Assembly (NCBI GenBank): GCA_030038475.1
Contig: JASHOU010000214.1
Span: forward strand, 1-51,759
Direction: 5' to 3'
DNA: 51,759 nt
Source of the DNA: Terriglobales bacterium
GTDB taxonomy: Bacteria; Acidobacteriota; Terriglobia; Terriglobales; Acidobacteriaceae
Shown: positions 1-48,243 of the stretch, piece after piece
Layout of the letters: each line of letters starts with the position of its first letter
Numbering within the stretch: position 1 is the stretch's first letter
Position numbers and translations under genes: made by a program
The notes under the pieces: generated by a model
Told to the model about the DNA's origin: nothing
Databases searched by the model: none
What the model saw: only the letters and a program-made list of their open reading frames with translations

Positions 1-325
1 GCAGCTTTTCAGCCGCCAGAATCTGCGCCGCGATGATTCCTTTGGCATCGCACGAGCCACGCCCGTAAATGCGAGCGGCATCTTCGGACGACGGAATAAA
101 CGGCGGCACGGTATCCATGTGCGTGGAGAAGACAATCTCCGGGTGTGCGTGGCCCGGAGACGTGGCGATAACATTCGCGCGCGCGCCCTCGACAGACATT
201 TTTACGGCTTCGAAACGGCGCCGTAGCAGCTCCTCGCAGAGAAAATCGCCGACCGCAGCTTCATTCGGAGTAATGGATTCGATATCGACCAGACGACGAG
301 TGAGCGTGAACAGATCGGCATCCAT
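1..325 (-). CDS. M20-family metallopeptidase, N-terminal part (gene runs off the window)
   Basis: This is the first 108 residues of a zinc-dependent M20 hydrolase of the succinyl-diaminopimelate desuccinylase, acetylornithine deacetylase and carboxypeptidase group. These enzymes cleave amide bonds in the cytoplasm. The motif HMDTVPP at residues 69-75 supplies the first metal-binding His and the catalytic Asp, and GRGSCDAKG at 88-96 supplies the bridging Asp. The chosen ATG begins MDADLFTLTRRLVDIES, which matches the usual M20 N-terminus. It lies 83 bp downstream of mqnA on the same strand, so the two may be co-transcribed. The substrate cannot be told because the rest of the gene lies outside the window. 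Confidence 0.85.
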   Translation of the reverse strand, partial: MDADLFTLTRRLVDIESITPNEAAVGDFLCEELLRRRFEAVKMSVEGARANVIATSPGHAHPEIVFSTHMDTVPPFIPSSEDAARIYGRGSCDAKGIIAAQILAAEKL

Positions 326-408
326 GCAGAAAAAGAGTACCAGCGGATGCGGATTGTGAATAGGGCGCGCCTCTTAGGCAGCATGAATCGGGTTTTACGC
401 GGCGGGCT

Positions 409-1317
409 TTAAGCGGCATTCGATAAGCGGAGTTCGGGCGCGGGCGGGAGTATGCCAAGCTCCGCGCCGAGCCTGTAGAAAAGGTCGAGGCCCTCAAGGC
501 AAGGAGGGTCGAGATAATAGTGGATGTGATGCGTCAAATAGACGCGAATGGCTTCGAGCGACAGGCCGAGACGCGGCGCCCACTGCTGCGCGATGGTCTC
601 GAGGTTTTTGGGAGCGAGGCCATGGTCGCGGGATTTTTTGAAAACGTCGGCAATCGCCGCGGCATTACGTCCGGCAAGCGCTTGCCGGCGAATCGCCCAA
701 AAAGCAAAGACGAATGATTCTCCGGTGCGCGCGACCCACTCTTCTGCCAGGTCAAGCGTGAAGTAGCGCGAGCGATCGACTTGCAGCGCGGGGTCTCCAA
801 TAAGCAGGGCCGCATCGCATGAAGCCAGCATGGCATCAATATCGGGAGCCATTGGCCGATATTGGCGCGCTCCGCCCAGCCATTTGGCAAACAGAATTTT
901 GGCCAGCGCAACCGAGGTCATCGAAGACGTATCGAGCGCAACGGTGTGAACGCGGCGCAACCATTCTTCTGTCGGTGCCAGTTGACTGCGTGTTTCAGCC
1001 CGCATCTTGTGCGGCGTTTTACCGGGCATTTTCGTTGGCATCTTACCTACTAGCAGAATCGACTGCACTGCGCGACGCGCCGCAATCGCGACTTCGGGAA
1101 TGATTACGAGGTCGGGAACGGTGGTATAAGCCGCGGCAGGTATGATGCCGATGTCGCCTGCGCCGGTGCGCAGTGCTTCCGCGCAGGCGGAAGGAATTGT
1201 GTAGGAAATATCGAAATCGGCGCCAGCTTCGCCACGCTCAAAATCCCACATCAGCGGCGCCGTGTTGAGGTAGGAAATAGCCGAGATCTTTAATCGGTCG
1301 ATCACTAGCCGGCTCAT
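409..1317 (-). CDS. mqnA: Chorismate dehydratase, futalosine pathway of menaquinone synthesis
   Basis: MqnA converts chorismate to 3-enolpyruvylbenzoate, the first step of the futalosine route to menaquinone. The N-terminus ISAISYLNTAPLMWDF and the later segments VALDTSSMTSVALAKIL and DAALLIGDPAL are typical of this periplasmic-binding-protein-like family. I start at ATG 1317 (302 aa) because the reading frame further upstream is repeat-rich and not family-like. The partner mqnD lies about 6 kb away and menG about 44 kb away, so the pathway is scattered here. An oddity is a roughly 30-residue insertion near residues 92-123, rich in K, P, M and T (MPTKMPGKTPHKM), placed between the SILLVGK strand and the HTVALDTSS strand. 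Confidence 0.9.
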   Translation of the reverse strand: MSRLVIDRLKISAISYLNTAPLMWDFERGEAGADFDISYTIPSACAEALRTGAGDIGIIPAAAYTTVPDLVIIPEVAIAARRAVQSILLVGKMPTKMPGKTPHKMRAETRSQLAPTEEWLRRVHTVALDTSSMTSVALAKILFAKWLGGARQYRPMAPDIDAMLASCDAALLIGDPALQVDRSRYFTLDLAEEWVARTGESFVFAFWAIRRQALAGRNAAAIADVFKKSRDHGLAPKNLETIAQQWAPRLGLSLEAIRVYLTHHIHYYLDPPCLEGLDLFYRLGAELGILPPAPELRLSNAA

Positions 1318-1399
1318 CAACTTACGAATTCTACCAAAAGCGATGTGCGCGCCCTCCTTGACAGCGCTTTCAAAAGTGGAATAAGCATGGGCTTGCCGG

Positions 1400-1515
1400 G
1401 AGCTTCGAGCTACGAGCCGCGAGCTACGGGCGATCAGTTGGATCAAAAGCTTTCGCTCGAGGACTGGGTTTCAAAGCCTGGAACTCGAATCTCGAACTCG
1501 AAGCCCGCAGCCCGG
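1400..1515. repeat. Reiterated-word repeats in the mqnA/dprA divergent gap
   Basis: Two short blocks are made of slightly varied copies of the same word. The first, at 1400-1430, repeats agctacgag-like units. The second, at 1481-1515, repeats gaactcgaa-like units. They occupy the 207-bp gap between the divergent mqnA and dprA starts and belong to the same type of low-complexity intergenic repeat seen at several other loci in this window. I see no clear promoter in the gap. Confidence 0.5.
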
Positions 1516-1524
1516 TTTTTCTCT

Positions 1525-2691
1525 ATGGCGAATCTCGCGGTTGCCCCTTCCAATCTGACTTCTCAACAGGGCCTCTACTGGCTGGCTCTGGCTTTGACTC
1601 CCGGGTTAGGGCCCACGCGCATCAAGAAATTGATCGAGCACTGCGGCCCGGCTGAGCGCGTGTTTCAGTTCAGCCTCACCGAGCTCGAAGCATTGGGCAT
1701 GCGCGCGGTTTCCGCGCAATCGATTGCCACAGGGAAATCGATGGAGTTGGCACAGCAGGAGTGCGTGCAGGCGGCCGAGGCTGGCGCCACGATCGTCGCG
1801 CTCAGCGATCCCGAATATCCATCGCGCCTGAAAGAAATCTATGACCCGCCGGTTATTCTGTTCGTCAAAGGCAGCCTCGAGGCGCTGGCGCAGCCGAGCA
1901 TTGCCATGGTGGGAACGCGCCACCCCACGCCTTACGGCACTGGCATGGCCGAACGCCTCTCCATTGATCTCGCGGCGCGTGGCTTGGTAATTCTTAGCGG
2001 GCTGGCGCGCGGCGTCGATGCCGCGTCGCATAGAGGCGCGGTCGCTGCCAAAGGAAAAAGCATTGCCGTGCTCGGCACGGGAATCGACATCATTTATCCG
2101 AAGGAAAACACGCGGCTCGCCGAACAGATGCTCGCTCTCGGCGGCGCGCTGGTTACGGAGTTTCCAGTCGGCATTTCGCCCGCTCCGCAGAATTTTCCCA
2201 TTCGCAATCGCATCATTAGCGGCATGTCCACGGGAGTTCTGGTCGTGGAAGCCGCGGAGTATAGCGGCACGCGTATCACGTCGCGCTGCGCTCTGGAACA
2301 AAACCGGGACGTCTTCGCCGTTCCCGGCAATGTGACCAACAAAAACTCGTGGGGGCCGAACACGCTGATCAAGCAAGGCGCGAAGCTCGTTGCTACCTGG
2401 GAGGATGTATGGGAGGAACTGTCGTCCGACGTGCAGGTTACCCTCAGCGCAATGCAGAATGAATCCCCCGCGCCCGAAACTGCATCTCTATTTCCTGACG
2501 AGCCGACTTCGCCCCACGAAAAGAAGATCCTCAAGCTGCTGAAGGCCGATGAATCCACGCACATCGATCAACTGGTGGAATTGCTGGAAGCCGAAATGTC
2601 CTCCTCGGAAATCTTCGCCGCATTGTTCGAGCTGGAGCTGAACGGGAAAGTGCGCCAGTTGCCGGGGAAGAATTTTGTGAAGAGCTTTTAG
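1525..2691 (+). CDS. dprA: DNA-processing protein DprA
   Basis: DprA (Smf) binds incoming single-stranded DNA in the cytoplasm and loads RecA during natural transformation. The 388-residue protein has an N-terminal helical region, a Rossmann-like core with MVGTRHPTPYG (about 127-137), SGLARGVDAASHRGA (about 158-172), GTGIDIIYPKEN and FPIRNRIISG, and a C-terminal winged-helix DprA domain from about residue 320 ending VRQLPGKNFVKSF. The ATG at 1525 is preferred over longer in-frame starts because upstream codons fall in the repeat-rich intergenic DNA. It is divergent from mqnA. Competence is possible but not proven by this one gene. Confidence 0.93.
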   Translation: MANLAVAPSNLTSQQGLYWLALALTPGLGPTRIKKLIEHCGPAERVFQFSLTELEALGMRAVSAQSIATGKSMELAQQECVQAAEAGATIVALSDPEYPSRLKEIYDPPVILFVKGSLEALAQPSIAMVGTRHPTPYGTGMAERLSIDLAARGLVILSGLARGVDAASHRGAVAAKGKSIAVLGTGIDIIYPKENTRLAEQMLALGGALVTEFPVGISPAPQNFPIRNRIISGMSTGVLVVEAAEYSGTRITSRCALEQNRDVFAVPGNVTNKNSWGPNTLIKQGAKLVATWEDVWEELSSDVQVTLSAMQNESPAPETASLFPDEPTSPHEKKILKLLKADESTHIDQLVELLEAEMSSSEIFAALFELELNGKVRQLPGKNFVKSF

Positions 2692-2704
2692 CGGCTGGCT
2701 GTTG

Positions 2705-2727
2705 GCTATTAGCTCCTGGCTCTTGGC
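2705..2727. repeat. Left arm of inverted repeat around the four-helix-bundle gene
   Basis: The 23-nt arm is composed of TGGCTCTTGGC and related words. Its reverse complement occurs at 3149-3171 with 20 of 23 positions matching, by hand alignment. The two arms enclose the four-helix-bundle gene almost exactly. Confidence 0.65.
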
Positions 2728-2751
2728 TCTTGCGAAGACGTGAAAGTGCTC

Positions 2752-3174
2752 ATGAGAAACTACAGAGATTTGAGCGTTTGGGAGAAAGCGCACCGCCTAA
2801 CGCTCGCGGTTTACAAGAATACGCAGACTTTCCCCAGCGAGGAACGATTTGGCCTGACGAGTCAGATGCGTCGTGCGTCGTCATCCATTGCAGCAAATCT
2901 CGCCGAAGGCTGTGGTCGACGGTCAGACGGCGAAATGCAAAGATTCATACAAATCGCCATGGGTTCGGGCACTGAACTGTCATACCACCTTTTGTTGGCC
3001 AAGGATCTGGGACTTATCGAGGAGAGAATTCATCTGGGCTTGGATTCAGATTTGGGAATCGTCATGCGCATGATGTCATCGCTCTTGCAGAGGATTAGAG
3101 CTCATCCGGGAAGAGATAATGAGTACCCTCTAAAACGTGAGGCCATGGGCCAAGAGCCAATAGCTAAAAGCTAG
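2752..3174 (+). CDS. Four-helix-bundle protein (23S rRNA intervening-sequence protein family)
   Basis: The protein of about 140 residues starts MRNYRDLSVWEKAHRL and contains SSSIAANLAEGCGRR and the helix GTELSYHLLLAKDLGLI. These are hallmarks of the TIGR02436 four-helix-bundle family, first met in 23S rRNA intervening sequences and related to the Avd accessory protein of diversity-generating retroelements. No reverse transcriptase or variable repeat is visible here. A GTG at 2740 is an alternative start. The last ten residues (GQEPIAKS at the end) are encoded by the right arm of an inverted repeat, so the tail is not family sequence and the gene may have captured a new stop codon. Molecular function is unknown. 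Confidence 0.85.
   Translation: MRNYRDLSVWEKAHRLTLAVYKNTQTFPSEERFGLTSQMRRASSSIAANLAEGCGRRSDGEMQRFIQIAMGSGTELSYHLLLAKDLGLIEERIHLGLDSDLGIVMRMMSSLLQRIRAHPGRDNEYPLKREAMGQEPIAKS
3149..3171. repeat. Right arm of inverted repeat around the four-helix-bundle gene
   Basis: This 23-nt arm is the inverted partner of 2705-2727. It overlaps the final codons of the four-helix-bundle gene, whose stop codon lies at its outer edge. The word composition matches the hairpin at 25377-25426. Confidence 0.65.
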
Positions 3175-3245
3175 ACGCCGCACAGTTGTTGCAATTCGCC
3201 ATTTCGTGCTAGGGTCAATTTCATTACCGTCATCTAGAGGAGCCA

Positions 3246-5750
3246 TTGTCTAAGGGTTTAGTCATTGTCGAATCGCCGGCTAAGGCGAAAACTATCCAGA
3301 AGTATTTGGGCAAGGGATTTACGGTCGATGCGTCATTCGGCCACGTGAAGGATCTGCCCAAGAGCAGCCTCGGTGTCGATCTCGACAACGATTTCGAAAC
3401 CGAATACGTTGTCATTCCTGGAAAAGAAAAGGTCCTGGCCAAGCTGAAGAAGCTGGCGCTTTCCGCCGATCACATCTATCTCGCGCCCGACCCCGATCGC
3501 GAAGGCGAAGCCATCGCCGCGCATCTTGCCGAGGAACTGGGCGACGATTCGGGCAAAAAGAAAAAAGCAAAGAAAAAGAGCGCCAAGGCAAAGACAGGCG
3601 CGGATTCGAATGGCGATGGCGAGCGCATTCGCCGCGTAACGTTCAACGAAATCACGCAACGCGCGGTGAAGGCTGCATTCGAGCATCCGCGCGACATCGA
3701 TAAGAATCTGGTCGATGCGCAGCAAACCCGCCGCGTGCTCGATCGCCTGGTGGGCTACCAGGTTTCTCCTCTTTTATGGGACAAGGTGCGCCGCGGGCTT
3801 TCTGCGGGACGCGTGCAGACCGTCGCGCTGCGCCTGATCGTCGACCGCGAGCGGGAAATCAAGGCCTTCGAGAAAAAAGAATATTGGACCATCGATGCCA
3901 ATCTCGCAGCCGCCAAGCCTCCCGTGTTTGCCGCGCACTTTCTGGGTAAGGGCGAAGAGAAAATCGAAATTGCGAACGGCGAGGAAGCGGATAAGATCCG
4001 GCTGGCGCTGGAAAAGGCCGATTGGGTCGTTCGCACGGCCGAAAAGAAAGAGCGGCGCCGCAATGCGACTCCGCCATTTACCACCAGCAAACTGCAGCAG
4101 GATTCCTCGCGAAAACTGCGTTTCAGCGTGAAGCGCACCATGATGATCGCGCAGCGTCTTTATGAAGGCATCGAACTGGGTGATGAAGGATTGATCGGTT
4201 TGATCACCTACATGCGTACCGATTCCACTCGGGTTGCGCCCGAAGCGATCACCGAGGTGCGCGAATACATCGGCAAAGAATATGGCGTCAGCTATCTGCC
4301 CGAATCTCCGAATACATATAAGGAGAAGAAAGAAGCGCAGGCGGCGCACGAAGCCATTCGTCCGACTTCGGCGATGCGCCATCCCGATCAGGTCAAGCAA
4401 TACTTGCAGGAAGACGAATTCAAGGTCTACAAACTGATCTGGCAGCGTTTCATTGCCTCACAGATGAACGCCGCCGTGTTCGATCAGACTTCAGTCGATA
4501 TCGACGCCAAATCAGTAAGCAACATTTTCTGGTTCCGCGTTACAGGGTCGGTGATGAAGTTTGACGGCTTCCTCAAAGTTTATGAAGAGGCCAAAGACAC
4601 AAAGGATGAAGAAGACCAGGAACGAAAACTTCCGCCGCTCGAGGCCGGCCAGAAATTGACGCTGAAGTCGTTGCATCCAGAGCAGCATTTCACCGAGCCA
4701 CCTCCGCGCTTCAACGAAGCTTCGCTGGTGAAGGAATTAGAAGAGCGCGGCATTGGCCGGCCGTCCACCTACGCGACGATTCTGAGCACGATTCAGGAGC
4801 GCATGTACGCGCAAAAAGTCGGCGGCAAATTTGTGCCCACCGAAATCGGCCTGGTCGTGACCGATCTGCTGGTCGAAAATTTCAAGGATATTTTCGATTT
4901 CCAGTACACCGCGCGGCTGGAGGAAGAACTCGACGAAATTGAAGAGGGCAAGCAAACCGGCAACGACGCGCTCAACGAGTTTTACAAGAAATTCGCCAAG
5001 GATCTCCGCTACGCCGAGAAGCACATGGAAAACATCAAGCGTATGGAGAAACCGACCGACGAAAAATGCGAACTCTGCGGAGCGCCGCTCGTTATCAAGT
5101 GGGGCAAGCACGGCTCGTTTTACGCTTGCAGCACCTATGACAAGGAGAATCCCGATAGCTGCAAGTTTACCAAGGAAAATCCCATTAATCTTCCCGACCT
5201 CGACTCGGCCGATGTGCAGGAAACATCGCAGGAGGAATACTGCGAAAACTGCGGCCGCGTGATGGTGCTGAAGCGTGGACGCTTCGGCCAGTTCATGGCC
5301 TGCACCGGTTATCCCGATTGCAAAACGACTCGCCGGCTCGATCAGGGCAAAAAAGTTCCCGACATTCCGCTCGAAGAAATCTGCCCGCAGTGTGGACGCA
5401 ACCTGATTCTGCGCCATGGCCGCTACGGCGAATTCGTCTCCTGTAGCGGATATCCTGAGTGCAAATATGTGAAGCAGAACTTCATCGGCGTAAAGTGCCC
5501 GCTATGCAAAGAAGGCGAACTGGTGGAGAAGCGAGCGCGCAAGGGCAATACTTTTTACGGCTGCGCAAATTATCCGAAGTGCAAATTCACCTCCGCTTCG
5601 AAGCCCATTGCCGAAAAGTGTCCGCTGTGCGGAAGCGAATACCTGGTGGAACGGATGCGCAAAGACGGTTCAGTGATTGCCTGCCCCAATAAGGAATGCG
5701 ATTACGAGCGCGCGTTGGAAGGCGCGGCGGCGGGCGCATCCAAGGTGTGA
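3246..5750 (+). CDS. topA: DNA topoisomerase I (type IA)
   Basis: TopA relaxes negative supercoils by transient single-strand cleavage. The 834-residue protein has an N-terminal Toprim domain (KGLVIVESPAKAKTIQKYLG, then DPDREGEAIAAHL), the catalytic tyrosine in LITYMRTDSTR at about residue 321, and five C4-type zinc-finger modules starting near residues 607, 665, 713, 750 and 792. The start is a TTG preceded by AGAGGAG with short spacing. No ATG or GTG further in would preserve the Toprim start. A lysine-rich insertion (about residues 100-123, KKKKAKKKSAKAK) sits inside the Toprim domain after the DxDxE-type motif. Confidence 0.97.
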   Translation: MSKGLVIVESPAKAKTIQKYLGKGFTVDASFGHVKDLPKSSLGVDLDNDFETEYVVIPGKEKVLAKLKKLALSADHIYLAPDPDREGEAIAAHLAEELGDDSGKKKKAKKKSAKAKTGADSNGDGERIRRVTFNEITQRAVKAAFEHPRDIDKNLVDAQQTRRVLDRLVGYQVSPLLWDKVRRGLSAGRVQTVALRLIVDREREIKAFEKKEYWTIDANLAAAKPPVFAAHFLGKGEEKIEIANGEEADKIRLALEKADWVVRTAEKKERRRNATPPFTTSKLQQDSSRKLRFSVKRTMMIAQRLYEGIELGDEGLIGLITYMRTDSTRVAPEAITEVREYIGKEYGVSYLPESPNTYKEKKEAQAAHEAIRPTSAMRHPDQVKQYLQEDEFKVYKLIWQRFIASQMNAAVFDQTSVDIDAKSVSNIFWFRVTGSVMKFDGFLKVYEEAKDTKDEEDQERKLPPLEAGQKLTLKSLHPEQHFTEPPPRFNEASLVKELEERGIGRPSTYATILSTIQERMYAQKVGGKFVPTEIGLVVTDLLVENFKDIFDFQYTARLEEELDEIEEGKQTGNDALNEFYKKFAKDLRYAEKHMENIKRMEKPTDEKCELCGAPLVIKWGKHGSFYACSTYDKENPDSCKFTKENPINLPDLDSADVQETSQEEYCENCGRVMVLKRGRFGQFMACTGYPDCKTTRRLDQGKKVPDIPLEEICPQCGRNLILRHGRYGEFVSCSGYPECKYVKQNFIGVKCPLCKEGELVEKRARKGNTFYGCANYPKCKFTSASKPIAEKCPLCGSEYLVERMRKDGSVIACPNKECDYERALEGAAAGASKV

Positions 5751-7323: not shown

Positions 7324-8178
7324 ATGAGTACCGTATCTTCCCCAGTTCGCGAAATCAGCGTGGCGCACAGCCCGGATTCGGATGATGCATTCATGTTTTA
7401 TGGCCTGGCTACGAACAAAGTTCGCGCGCCAGGACTGAAGTTCAAGCACACGCTTTGCGACATCGAAACGCTGAACCGGCAGGCGCAGCAAGGTGACGGC
7501 GTCTACGATGTCACCGCGATTTCGTTTCATGCCTTTCCCTACGTTCAGGAAAACTACGCATTGATGTCGTGTGGCGGCAGCGTGGGAGACGGTTATGGTC
7601 CCATGCTCGTTTCCACGCGCGCCTTCACTCAGGAAGAAATCAAGCAAAAGAAAATCGCCGTGCCCGGCAAACTCACCACCGCGTATCTGGCCCTCGAACT
7701 GTTTGCGCCCGGCGTCGAAGTGGAGGTCGTTCCCTTCGATCAGATCATTCCGCAGATTCTTGAGGGCAAATACGAAGCGGGCCTCATCATCCACGAGGGC
7801 CAGCTCACGTATGACAAGTCGGGGTTGCACCGGGTGGTCGATCTTGGCCGCTGGTGGCAAAAAGTTACAGGACTGCCGCTGCCACTCGGAGGGAACGCCA
7901 TTCGCCGTTCGCTCGGCCGCGAAACCATGTCAAGCGTGACGCAGGCGCTGCGCGAGAGCATCCAATACGCGATCGATCATCGTGAAGAGGCGCTCGCGTA
8001 TGCCATGCAGTTCGCCCGCGATCTCGATACGCAGCTAGCCGATAAGTTTGTCGGCATGTATGTGAATGAGCGGACGCTCGACTATGGAGAAGACGGCCGC
8101 GAAGCTGTGCGCCGCCTGCTGGATATGGGCCACAAAGCTGGGATCATTCCGCAAACGCCGAGAGTGGAGTGGGTGTAG
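7324..8178 (+). CDS. mqnD: 1,4-dihydroxy-6-naphthoate synthase, futalosine pathway
   Basis: MqnD converts cyclic dehypoxanthine futalosine to 1,4-dihydroxy-6-naphthoate in menaquinone synthesis. The 284-residue sequence opens with the signature VAHSPDSDDAFMFYGL and contains the conserved segments DVTAISFHAFPYV, GYGPMLVS, GLIIHEGQLTY and LPLPLGGNAIRR. Length matches the family. It is a stand-alone gene downstream of bioY. With mqnA and menG in the same window, it implies the organism makes menaquinone by the futalosine route. MqnB, MqnC and MqnE are not in the window. Confidence 0.95.
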   Translation: MSTVSSPVREISVAHSPDSDDAFMFYGLATNKVRAPGLKFKHTLCDIETLNRQAQQGDGVYDVTAISFHAFPYVQENYALMSCGGSVGDGYGPMLVSTRAFTQEEIKQKKIAVPGKLTTAYLALELFAPGVEVEVVPFDQIIPQILEGKYEAGLIIHEGQLTYDKSGLHRVVDLGRWWQKVTGLPLPLGGNAIRRSLGRETMSSVTQALRESIQYAIDHREEALAYAMQFARDLDTQLADKFVGMYVNERTLDYGEDGREAVRRLLDMGHKAGIIPQTPRVEWV

Positions 8179-8180
8179 GA

Positions 8181-8303
8181 GAGCTGCGAGCTTCGGGCTG
8201 CGAGCTTCGAGCGAGCAACTGCAGATCCCTCGCTCCGCTCGGGATGACAATCCCTGAAATACAGGGCAGTACCTGACGGCTCGCAGCCCGAGGCTCGTAG
8301 CTC
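8181..8303. repeat. Word-repeat palindrome enclosing a GTCATCCC-type element
   Basis: Two 25-nt arms, 8181-8205 and 8279-8303, are inverted copies with 23 of 25 matches. They are built from the reiterated word GAGCTGCGAGC and its variants. They enclose 73 bp that include an element at 8226-8248 whose reverse complement matches 40705-40727 at 21 of 23 positions. The structure fills the gap between the convergent mqnD and M49-like genes, so it may also act as a two-way terminator. Confidence 0.65.
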
Positions 8304-8311
8304 CAAGCGCC

Positions 8312-18647: not shown

Positions 18648-18717
18648 GCGATTCCTTAGTAGAGACGGCGAAGAGCAGTTCGCAGCATTGTACAGGCAGG
18701 ATTGAGTCATTTAGCCA

Positions 18718-18776
18718 TTGAGAGATTGAATGATTGGGACAATCGGGTCCAATGCCTCAATGATTCAATGTCTCAA
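18718..18776. repeat. Word-repeat palindrome in a divergent promoter region
   Basis: Arms 18718-18736 and 18758-18776 are inverted copies (17 of 19 matches) made of the reiterated word ATTGA/TCAAT. The palindrome lies between the divergent sodium symporter and kinase genes, so it cannot be a terminator for either. It could be a regulatory site or an inert repeat. Confidence 0.6.
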
Positions 18777-18808
18777 CAATCCAGCGGACGTGTGTTAGAA
18801 CTAGCGCG

Positions 18809-25324: not shown

Positions 25325-25376
25325 ACAGAGATTGTAGCGAGGATGTGAGTATAATTCTCGTGCCAGCGCTCAGCGC

Positions 25377-25426
25377 TTAGCTTTTAGCTCTTAGCCAAAA
25401 GCTAAGGGCCAAGAGCTGAAAGCAAA
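25377..25426. repeat. Near-continuous word-repeat hairpin
   Basis: Arms 25377-25396 and 25407-25426 are inverted copies (17 of 20 matches) around a 10-nt loop, built from TTAGC/GCTCTTGGC words. The vocabulary is the same as in the arms that flank the four-helix-bundle gene at 2705-3171, but here nothing lies between the arms. It is located between divergent genes. Confidence 0.6.
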
Positions 25427-25464
25427 AAGCCAACACCTGACTGCCATCACTGGAGGGAAGCGTC

Positions 25465-37882: not shown

Positions 37883-39160
37883 ATGGCGATTGGGCCGATT
37901 CAGGCGCTGCGGCAGGCATCGAGCGAGCAACGCCGCACGCTGCTCGCGGCCGCACTCGGCTGGATGCTTGACTCGTTCGATGCCATGCTTTATGCGCTCG
38001 TCCTGGCCTACGTCATGCGCGATCTCGGCATGTCGAAGGCGACCTCGGGACTTCTCTACACGCTTACCTTGCTGGCCTCTGGCATCGGCGGTGTGGGCTT
38101 CGGGTTTCTCGCTGACCGCATCGGACGCAAGCGCGCGCTGATGCTCAGCATCCTGACTTACTCGCTCTGCTCTTTCGCTTCCGGCCTCTCGACCACGGTG
38201 CTCATGCTCGCTATATTTCGTTTCATCCTGGGACTCGGTATGGGAGGCGAATGGAACACGGGCGCAACCCTTGTTGCGGAAACCTGGCCCAACGAATTGC
38301 GCGCCCAGGCGATTGCGCTGGTGCAAAGCTCCTGGGCGATCGGTTACGCGTGCGCTTCGCTGGTCGCCGGCATTGTTCTGCGTTATGCCAACTGGCGAAT
38401 GGTATTCTTCGTCGGAATTCTTCCTGCCCTTGTCACACTCTGGATACGAAACCGCGTGCCGGAGTCGCAGATGTGGAAAGAACACCAGCGGCTATCGGTG
38501 GAAACGAATCGTTCTCCTTCGTACGCCGAGCCTCCTGCGCCGCAGGATTCCGACTTCTTTGCCATCTTTCGGGCTCCATACGGGGGTAGCACTATTGCGC
38601 TTCTTCTGCTCAACTTCTTCGGACTGTTTGGCTGGTGGGGACTGTTCACCTGGATTCCACCTTATCTTTCGCTTTCGGTCTCGCAAGGCGGGCGCGGGTT
38701 GGGGGTAATGCGCACGACTACGCTGCTGGTTGTGCTCAACCTCTTTGGCATGTTTCCCGGATATGTCACGTTCGGATGGGCAGCCGATCGGCTTGGGCGA
38801 CGTAACGCTTTTGTGCTTTATCTTTTTGCGGCGGCGCTTTTGGTGCCAGTCTATGCGGCGGCGCGTTCGCCGGCCGCCCTGCTCGTGCTGGGCGTGATCG
38901 TAGCTTTTTTCGGCACGGGATTTTTCTCCGGTTCGGGACTGATCGGCAGCGAGATTTTTCCCACGCGTCTTAGAGCGCGCGCTCTCGGCTTTACCTATAA
39001 CGGCGCTCGCACTCTGAGCTGTGTCGCTCCGTGGACGATCGGCTGGGTCGGCCAGACGAAGGGTCTGGCATGGGCTTTCTACTTGTGCGGCGCAGCGTTT
39101 CTGATGGCCAGTTTGATGGCCACGCAGTTGCCGGAGACGCGGGGCAAGGTGTTGGAATAG
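37883..39160 (+). CDS. Major facilitator superfamily transporter
   Basis: The 425-residue protein has about twelve transmembrane helices and the MFS motif between helices 2 and 3, GFGFLADRIGRKRALML, repeated in weaker form as GWAADRLGRRNAFVLY in the second half. Its N-terminus, GWMLDSFDAMLYALVLAYVM, and the motif LGLGMGGEWNTGATLVAETW are typical of sugar-phosphate, aromatic-acid and sialic-acid MFS carriers. It follows the cupredoxin gene by 29 bp, so it may belong to the same transcript as the two-component system, porin and cupredoxin. Substrate cannot be assigned. Confidence 0.9.
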   Translation: MAIGPIQALRQASSEQRRTLLAAALGWMLDSFDAMLYALVLAYVMRDLGMSKATSGLLYTLTLLASGIGGVGFGFLADRIGRKRALMLSILTYSLCSFASGLSTTVLMLAIFRFILGLGMGGEWNTGATLVAETWPNELRAQAIALVQSSWAIGYACASLVAGIVLRYANWRMVFFVGILPALVTLWIRNRVPESQMWKEHQRLSVETNRSPSYAEPPAPQDSDFFAIFRAPYGGSTIALLLLNFFGLFGWWGLFTWIPPYLSLSVSQGGRGLGVMRTTTLLVVLNLFGMFPGYVTFGWAADRLGRRNAFVLYLFAAALLVPVYAAARSPAALLVLGVIVAFFGTGFFSGSGLIGSEIFPTRLRARALGFTYNGARTLSCVAPWTIGWVGQTKGLAWAFYLCGAAFLMASLMATQLPETRGKVLE

Positions 39161-39167
39161 CAGCTTA

Positions 39168-39217
39168 GTCGTTAGTCGTTGGTCGTTCGCAATCCTTGTT
39201 TGCCAATGACTAACAAC
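39168..39217. repeat. Word-repeat palindrome between convergent genes
   Basis: Arms 39168-39182 (GTCGTTAGTCGTTGG) and 39203-39217 are inverted copies with 13 of 15 matches. They are made of the reiterated word GTCGTTA/GTCGTTG, also seen near 26069. Located between the MFS and EamA genes, the structure could form a transcription-stopping hairpin. Confidence 0.6.
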
Positions 39218-39229
39218 CACCGATTCTTC

Positions 39230-48103: not shown

Positions 48104-48127
48104 AGGGAATGGTAACGAATCGAGTGG

Positions 48128-48151
48128 CAGGTGTCAGGTCTCAGGTCTCAG
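48128..48151. repeat. Reiterated CAGGTCT-type word repeat
   Basis: The word caggtctcag is repeated with variation in 24 nt upstream of terC. It is a direct rather than inverted arrangement. The 140-bp gap between rrf2-like and terC genes otherwise contains nothing I recognise. Confidence 0.4.
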
Positions 48152-48243
48152 CGAAACCGCAATTGGAAGCAGATCTCATTAAGAATAGAGGGCGACAACG
48201 AAGAAGCATGGCTCAAGCTGTGCCGAGTGTAACCGCGTTCCGC

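Follow-up and report, generated by a model that had tools for sequence, protein, structure and literature searches.

A short gene of the S23/IVP four-helix-bundle (4HB) family lies between inverted repeats in the 51,759-nucleotide stretch of Terriglobales bacterium DNA analysed here (the window), and the question it raises is whether gene and repeats together form a mobile unit and, if so, of which kind. The first-pass annotation had proposed that the gene could be cargo of a small palindromic mobile unit, with a hairpin at 25.4 kb as an empty version of the unit, and had noted that its family is related to the Avd accessory protein of diversity-generating retroelements.

The 4HB gene and its inverted word arrays

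The gene (2740..3174, + strand; PF05635, E 6.7e-34; TIGR02436) has the host genes dprA (1345..2691, + strand; PF02481, E 7.6e-76) on its left and topA (3246..5750, + strand; PF01131, E 2.1e-128) on its right. Direct reading bore out the inverted arms proposed at 2705-2727 and 3149-3171, which match at 20 of 23 positions, and likewise that the right arm supplies the C-terminal residues of the open reading frame together with its TAG stop. These arms lie within longer arrays of period 7, in which words of the GCTNTTA/G type are reiterated with GC fixed. The left array (2684..2734, − strand) overlaps the end of dprA and has seven units at 2684-2727; the right array (3139..3179, + strand), inverted with respect to the left one, doubles as the 3′ end of the 4HB gene and has six units at 3142-3178. 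Taken as an extended pair (2691-2727 and 3142-3178), the arms are 37 nt long with a complementarity of 78%. In a flank test that aligns the left flank with the reverse-complemented right flank, the locus scored 34 against a threshold of 29, set at the 99th percentile for 2189 windows of equal geometry from 40 regions of relatives (those of the 40-locus set described below). Complementary ends enclosing an S23 ORF, a feature of rRNA intervening sequences (IVS) and S23 elements, are present in the window copy, and the rRNA-gene location of IVS is absent, the copy being sited between dprA and topA.

Started at GTG, the product would comprise 144 amino acids; homologues make the ATG at 2752 a more probable start. 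Profile searches identified PF05635 as the sole domain, with the Y1 (HUH) transposase absent and no recognised catalytic domain found, and the phage records searched gave no match to the protein. Across 27 4HB sequences, Q42, S49, N53 and E79 were invariant.

The AF2 model of the window protein (pLDDT 90.5) placed the S23 structures 2gsc (Z 20.5) and 2rld first in a structure comparison and Avd next, with Z 14.9 for chains 4dwl (rmsd 1.5, 107 aligned residues) and 8ub7; an unrelated helical fold followed at 12.8. Matches besides 2gsc, 2rld and the chains of Avd or diversity-generating retroelements were set aside as common helical arrangements. The proposed relation to Avd holds at the level of the fold but not of the sequence, where the Avd model NF033474 gave 17.4 bits against a cut-off of 80.

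Generality of the arms and their coupling to the protein

The own genome of the window (G000) has three PF05635 genes, every one of them inside inverted arrays, and the words differ from copy to copy: GCTNTTA/G in the window, GTTTCAA at L002 and CATTGAAT at L003. Within the host family, PF05635 genes were present in 87 of 120 genomes, with 1-11 copies per genome where present and 325 copies summed. The flank test gave a median score of 42 for 33 loci (the three own ones and thirty that were the best of their genome), compared with 18 when the flanks were taken from different loci. For 40 further family loci (4HB places beyond the earlier ones, many near contig starts being passed over) the median was 44.5, and 35 scored at least 29. 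Short arrays were visible at two loci of this set that fell below the threshold (L072 and L089) and nothing was seen at the others (L080, L084, L098); the misses in the 33-locus set (L043, L057, L061) scored 27-28. Most copies of the gene are accordingly flanked in the same manner as the one in the window, with inverted, locus-specific arms at 65 of 73 family loci.

When periodicity at a lag of 7-9 was demanded in addition, 54 of the 73 4HB loci passed as against 0 of 30 loci of RAYT genes. The best lag was 7 or 14 at 53 of the 65 family loci with arms and at 32 of 48 in another arm-bearing set, and at many loci the arms matched, by eye, in the order of their word variants. Not all positions of a word are free to vary: ranked by mean identity they gave 1.00, 0.99, 0.97, 0.90, 0.85, 0.71 and 0.58 for 35 loci with ungapped, period-7 arms. 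The two arms of a locus are not independent, which makes the combined p value of this comparison too small.

Beyond the family survey, the best 80 of 576 relatives were sampled, of which L242 was excluded for its short flank. Scores of at least 29 were obtained for 50 of the remaining 79 named loci with usable flanks, and those with arms came from Pseudomonadota, Bacteroidota, Planctomycetota, Acidobacteriota, Cyanobacteriota, Fibrobacterota, Ignavibacteriota, candidate phyla and others. The 29 loci under the threshold included 11 of 28 from Bacteroidota, 4 of 5 from Chloroflexota, 3 of 4 from Verrucomicrobiota and both archaeal ones. Among plasmids, 31 records matched, and 7 of the 8 loci examined had arms, the locus on the Nostoc HK-01 plasmid (L390) being without arms by score. 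On a Pseudanabaena galeata plasmid (L388), a 4HB gene with long AAAAGCT arrays lies between cas6 and cas4. L324 and L337 carry a complete word hairpin, not a single array, 5′ of the 4HB gene, which gives three arrays per element.

Word similarity rose with protein identity (Spearman 0.18 over 6138 pairs, with 0 of 999 permutations as high) among 113 loci with an arm score of at least 30, 190 pairs with any homologous neighbouring ORF having been excluded. Taken over all pairs the correlation is weak, but among close proteins it is strong: words matched in 0.5% of pairs below 40% protein identity, in 17% at 60-70% and in 2 of 4 pairs above 70%. It persisted when only cross-phylum pairs were considered (rho 0.11, 0 of 999 permutations), where words were common to 15 of the 78 pairs with an identity of at least 60% and to 27 of the 2678 below 50%. 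The proteins of L174 (Planctomycetota) and L182 (a cyanobacterium), for example, are 72% identical and have identical AGCGGTC words; those of L002 and L192 are 43% identical, yet the loci have words in common. This coupling could also arise if gene and arms were passed on together, with no recognition involved.

One plasmid locus lies inside an rRNA gene. On AZO_p2 of Azospirillum lipoferum 4B, an unannotated 4HB gene (L394:1501-1878) interrupts a 23S rRNA gene (RF02541 over 286-3378 of the locus) and is flanked by inverted TCAGAGGACGGATGACAGAGGACGGA-type words. The insertion point is presumably helix 45, going by the E. coli structure. As a single example, L394 ties the word system to the classical rRNA intervening sequences.

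Gene-less hairpins and orthologous sites

Word arrays without a 4HB gene occur elsewhere in the window. Gene-less hairpins were found at 8178..8308 (GAGCTTCG-type words, arms 8181-8205 and 8279-8303) and at 18701..18777 (TTGAATGA-type words, resembling those around the own-genome 4HB gene L003), and a GTCGTT-word array with a weaker inverted partner at 39160..39220, the partner and the right end being placed by eye. Single arrays lie at 1395..1433 (GAGCTAC type) and 48119..48156 (CAGGTCT type). The hairpin reported earlier at 25377-25426 is real and extends over about 25361-25430; it is built of GCTCTTA-type words, falls below the stricter hairpin detector and is flanked by a TATAAT-like box and a DUF2911 gene. 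Its reading as an emptied version of the 4HB unit had to be given up, since in all 24 genus genomes the 4HB gene is absent from this site, the intergenic distance being at most 255 nt. A word hairpin stands there in about 16 of the 24 (by eye), with differing words, and none in L139 and L153.

A detector blind to the words found 0 hairpins in 200 kb from G017, a genome without 4HB genes, and 0 in shuffled sequence. It also found 0 in 100 kb of G119 (1 copy), 100 kb of G047 (2 copies) and 80 kb of G031 (3 copies), and 2-8 hairpins per 100 kb in G028, G075, G109 and G025, which have 8-11 4HB copies. In the own genome, with its three copies, 8 gene-less hairpins were present in 311 kb, or 2.6 per 100 kb, a biased density because the stretches came from contigs already known for AGC or 4HB loci. 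Over 120 genomes, two word patterns correlated with 4HB copy number with rho values of 0.46 and 0.51 (0.61 for their sum), kinship being ignored; a word pattern was present in 7 of 33 4HB-free genomes versus 18 of 19 with at least six copies. Genomes whose sampled 4HB gene has a given word were enriched for that word (p 5e-5 and 0.002, four genomes each). In G000, 96 AGC-word and 71 GTCGTT pattern hits (overlapping, the element's own arms counted) compare with three 4HB genes, and GTCGTT is the word of none of the three; arrays can therefore occur without a present cognate.

In genome G001, a filled locus (L103) and a gene-less hairpin (L304) have the left array and much of the right one in common in unrelated surroundings. 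Because word arms are common to both, the 4HB gene and the gene-less hairpins look like one family of tiny mobile elements. Two further arrangements were seen in G003: at L316, an AGTACC-word hairpin whose loop contains an AGCTAAG-word array, so that word types are nested, and at L315, AGTACC arrays about 580 nt apart that enclose, by eye, a GNAT-like acetyltransferase ORF and no 4HB gene.

Sites orthologous to that of the window copy were taken from 30 dprA-topA loci among the topA matches, of which 29 were readable. A 4HB match was present in 22 (truncated in L132) and lacking in 7. Gene and arms were both missing at four of these seven (L126, L128, L129, L130), word-like remnants were visible by eye at two (L114, L120), and L131 kept both arms around a gene remnant. 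The first-pass annotation had named two outcomes that would speak against a mobile unit, namely other gene copies without flanks and gene-less syntenic relatives with both arms; what was found is mainly in favour of such a unit. Between species, 4HB type and word at dprA-topA vary together. The tree of these 4HB types was built from few columns and leaves 42 of 85 inner branches open, and seven loci of the family survey (L035, L046, L055, L057, L078, L092, L100) are also dprA-topA sites, so that long residence is as likely as re-insertion. With the site occupied family-wide, the element there may be merely inherited. Its persistence in many species between topA and dprA, a gene of DNA uptake and recombination, may hint at some benefit from that position.

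At the nrdR-IDH site, an intergenic place compared within the genus, 20 of 21 loci were readable. The 4HB element with CATTGAAT words was found in 7 (decayed in L331), a deletion derivative in 1 of 20 (L328), an ATCGGGT hairpin without 4HB gene in 4 of 20, and neither 4HB gene nor hairpin in 8 of 20, some of the last with REP-like palindromes and one (L326) possibly with decayed words. The shortest intergenic region measured 14 nt past the stop (L338). Presence and absence at orthologous sites, a feature of insertion sequences and MITEs, was thus observed; visual comparison of filled with empty nrdR-IDH sites brought out no evident target-site duplication, and at empty sites deletion is not always separable from missing insertion. 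The REP-like palindromes at L332, L335 and L341 are of the CAGCCGGGGCGGCTG type. In L325, L330 and L342 an ATCGGGT array supplies a new nrdR stop, whereby the C-terminus becomes RVIG or RIIG.

Elements often abut the ends of genes. Of 118 outer boundaries, 72 were no more than 20 nt away from a converging ORF's stop codon, versus 8% of random positions drawn from the whole sequence, intergenic or not; the same held for 24 of 52 gene-less hairpins. Because the elements abut stop codons, they probably lie in transcribed ends.

Explanations and comparison with known systems

The observations as a whole are probably best explained by a REPIN-like family of mobile palindromes with S23 as the cognate gene. 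The unit is made up of an S23/IVP 4HB gene and, on either side of it, inverted arrays whose short word is mostly 7 nt long; related S23 genes bear related words, and the gene-less hairpins would be its dispersed short forms, the counterpart of REPINs in the RAYT system. The S23 protein would most likely recognise the repeated word in hairpin DNA and act in trans, and the palindrome would be copied to new intergenic sites, often at stop codons, perhaps aided by host replication or by an active site that escaped recognition. Where the palindrome lands in a structured site that is transcribed, for instance a helix of 23S rRNA, a classical rRNA intervening sequence would result. Considering the lack of a catalytic domain, the S23/Avd fold and the RAYT, reverse transcriptase (RT) and RNA-stem results given below, we infer word recognition with assisted copying. 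Of the idea of a mobile unit put forward in the first-pass annotation, the palindromic unit of gene and inverted arrays and the existence of gene-less hairpins stand, and the retroelement link and the role as cargo find no support: the gene looks like the element's own because the arrays are usually found with it and the word can be predicted from its sequence. The wider proposition that S23/IVP proteins are the specificity factors of an unrecognised cross-phylum class of mobile DNA is put forward tentatively, with slightly less than even confidence; in it, an Avd-fold non-transposase would set the word by its sequence, hairpins would spread in trans, and both IVS and the TAACTGA and GGGAATC repeats would be special cases.

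An improbable, though the most serious, alternative makes the hairpins the true mobile entity, moved by an enzyme of the host or of RAYT type, and the S23 gene a passenger that was inserted or captured. It would account for arrays far outnumbering genes (the 96 AGC and 71 GTCGTT hits versus three genes in G000), for the 8 gene-less hairpins in 311 kb of that genome, for orphan words and for the AGTACC arrays around the GNAT-like ORF at L315. It does not agree with the joint absence of gene and arms at 4 of 7 dprA-topA and at 8 nrdR-IDH sites, nor with a word that is predicted by the 4HB sequence across phyla. The RAYT genes (PF01797) of the same genomes go with other repeats: inverted flanks occurred at 22 of 30 loci and TAGCCC(A/G)G-type REPs at 16, but periodic word arms at none. 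Five of these loci (L356, L361, L367, L374, L377) are cut by contig ends, and L383 and L373 less so, so that flanks may be misplaced. The correlation of words with 4HB copies given Y1 copies was 0.46 and that of words with Y1 copies given 4HB copies 0.17, kinship being ignored and the two copy numbers being themselves correlated (0.59). Partial correlations and the lack of periodic arms both disfavour RAYT as the mover of the words. With their TAGCCC(A/G)G-type REPs, the RAYT genes (L358-L382) form a REPIN system of their own that runs parallel to the word hairpins.

The arrays could also be kept inverted by selection on RNA, if the element were a selfish one whose stem is excised or processed from transcripts by RNase III. 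Such excision is established for rRNA IVS according to the available text of PMC4990558, L394 is an IVS with word arms, and elements abutting stop codons probably lie in transcribed ends. On the gene strand, arm mismatches were G.U in 69 and A.C in 72 cases (65 loci), a balance that gives no sign of a selected gene-strand RNA stem; this reading, which also leaves the word-protein coupling and the dispersal of hairpins unexplained, was rejected on those counts and appears quite unlikely. Ordinary slippage microsatellites that form chance inverted pairs near small genes, as noise or an effect of composition, are very improbable: heptamer repeats are reported to be over-represented in bacteria (PMC4692102, in the part available), but 65 of 73 loci with arms stand against a background of 1%, periodic arms were found at 54 of 73 4HB loci and 0 of 30 RAYT loci, word variants match in order between arms at many loci by eye, and shuffled sequence and 200 kb of 4HB-free G017 were free of hairpins. 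Least credible of all, to the point of being negligible, is the gene as the Avd accessory part of a diversity-generating retroelement, with the repeats as retroelement machinery. The fold match to 4dwl and 8ub7 (Z 14.9) agrees with it, but the Avd sequence model stayed far under its cut-off, PF00078 (reverse transcriptase) gave 0 matches in the 98.4% complete draft of the own genome and was absent from 9 of 19 genomes with at least six 4HB copies, 13 of 28 word-rich genomes were without RT, and word hits and RT were uncorrelated (0.045). Reverse transcriptase is not required by the element, and the retroelement link was rejected on the RT counts.

A REPIN-like family with S23 as cognate gene would give one account of three puzzles: the role of S23 proteins outside rRNA, the spread of IVS and the origin of bacterial heptamer repeats. 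It points to mobility of the REPIN kind with no known transposase involved, and to a legible code that pairs a small protein with a repeated DNA word and lends itself directly to binding and mobility assays. No report linking S23 genes to word arrays was among the matches listed from the open-licence literature; in the available part of PMC10910872 the domain is named in a figure legend alone.

With the Avd proteins of diversity-generating retroelements, the S23 word elements appear to have the four-helix fold in common, as judged from the model; for the word elements RT is neither needed nor correlated. With rRNA IVS they have in common the protein family and an ORF between complementary ends. 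As described in the available text of PMC4990558, IVS with an S23 ORF (Leptospira, Coxiella) are selfish elements with complementary ends and a sporadic distribution, and the solved Xanthomonas S23 relative is a pentamer; word arrays are not described in that portion. IVS are located in rRNA genes, whereas the S23 word elements are intergenic between protein genes, occur in 1-11 copies and have dispersed hairpins and words that track the protein.

Heptamer repeats have been described from another direction. The sections available of the two papers report TAACTGA heptamers, nearly all direct repeats, in Beggiatoaceae, cyanobacteria and Bacteroidetes (PMC4679880), and GGGAATC heptamers in Xanthomonas and GGGGA(C/T)T in Nostoc, with 186 GGGAATC-type arrays in Xanthomonas campestris (PMC4692102), from which the S23 protein of solved structure, XCC0516, comes. 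Like the S23 words, these heptamers are dispersed, mainly intergenic and of scattered distribution, and those of Xanthomonas have some conserved and some variable word positions and some inverted arrangements. Regulation or G-quadruplexes are discussed in these sections, and the terms 'four helix' and 'S23' have 0 occurrences in the main text of either paper.

A further close parallel is the REPIN-RAYT system, in which, according to the parts available of PMC3116915 and PMC3733652, inverted repeats flank the gene and are also dispersed as inverted pairs, and gene and repeat co-diversify. A Y1 transposase is present there and none in the S23 word element, and a single GTAG- or CGTC-tagged palindrome takes the place of the multi-unit arrays of period 7 or 8. 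What the two have in common is that the inverted repeat flanking the gene recurs elsewhere in the form of inverted pairs, as it was found to do for the S23 elements too.
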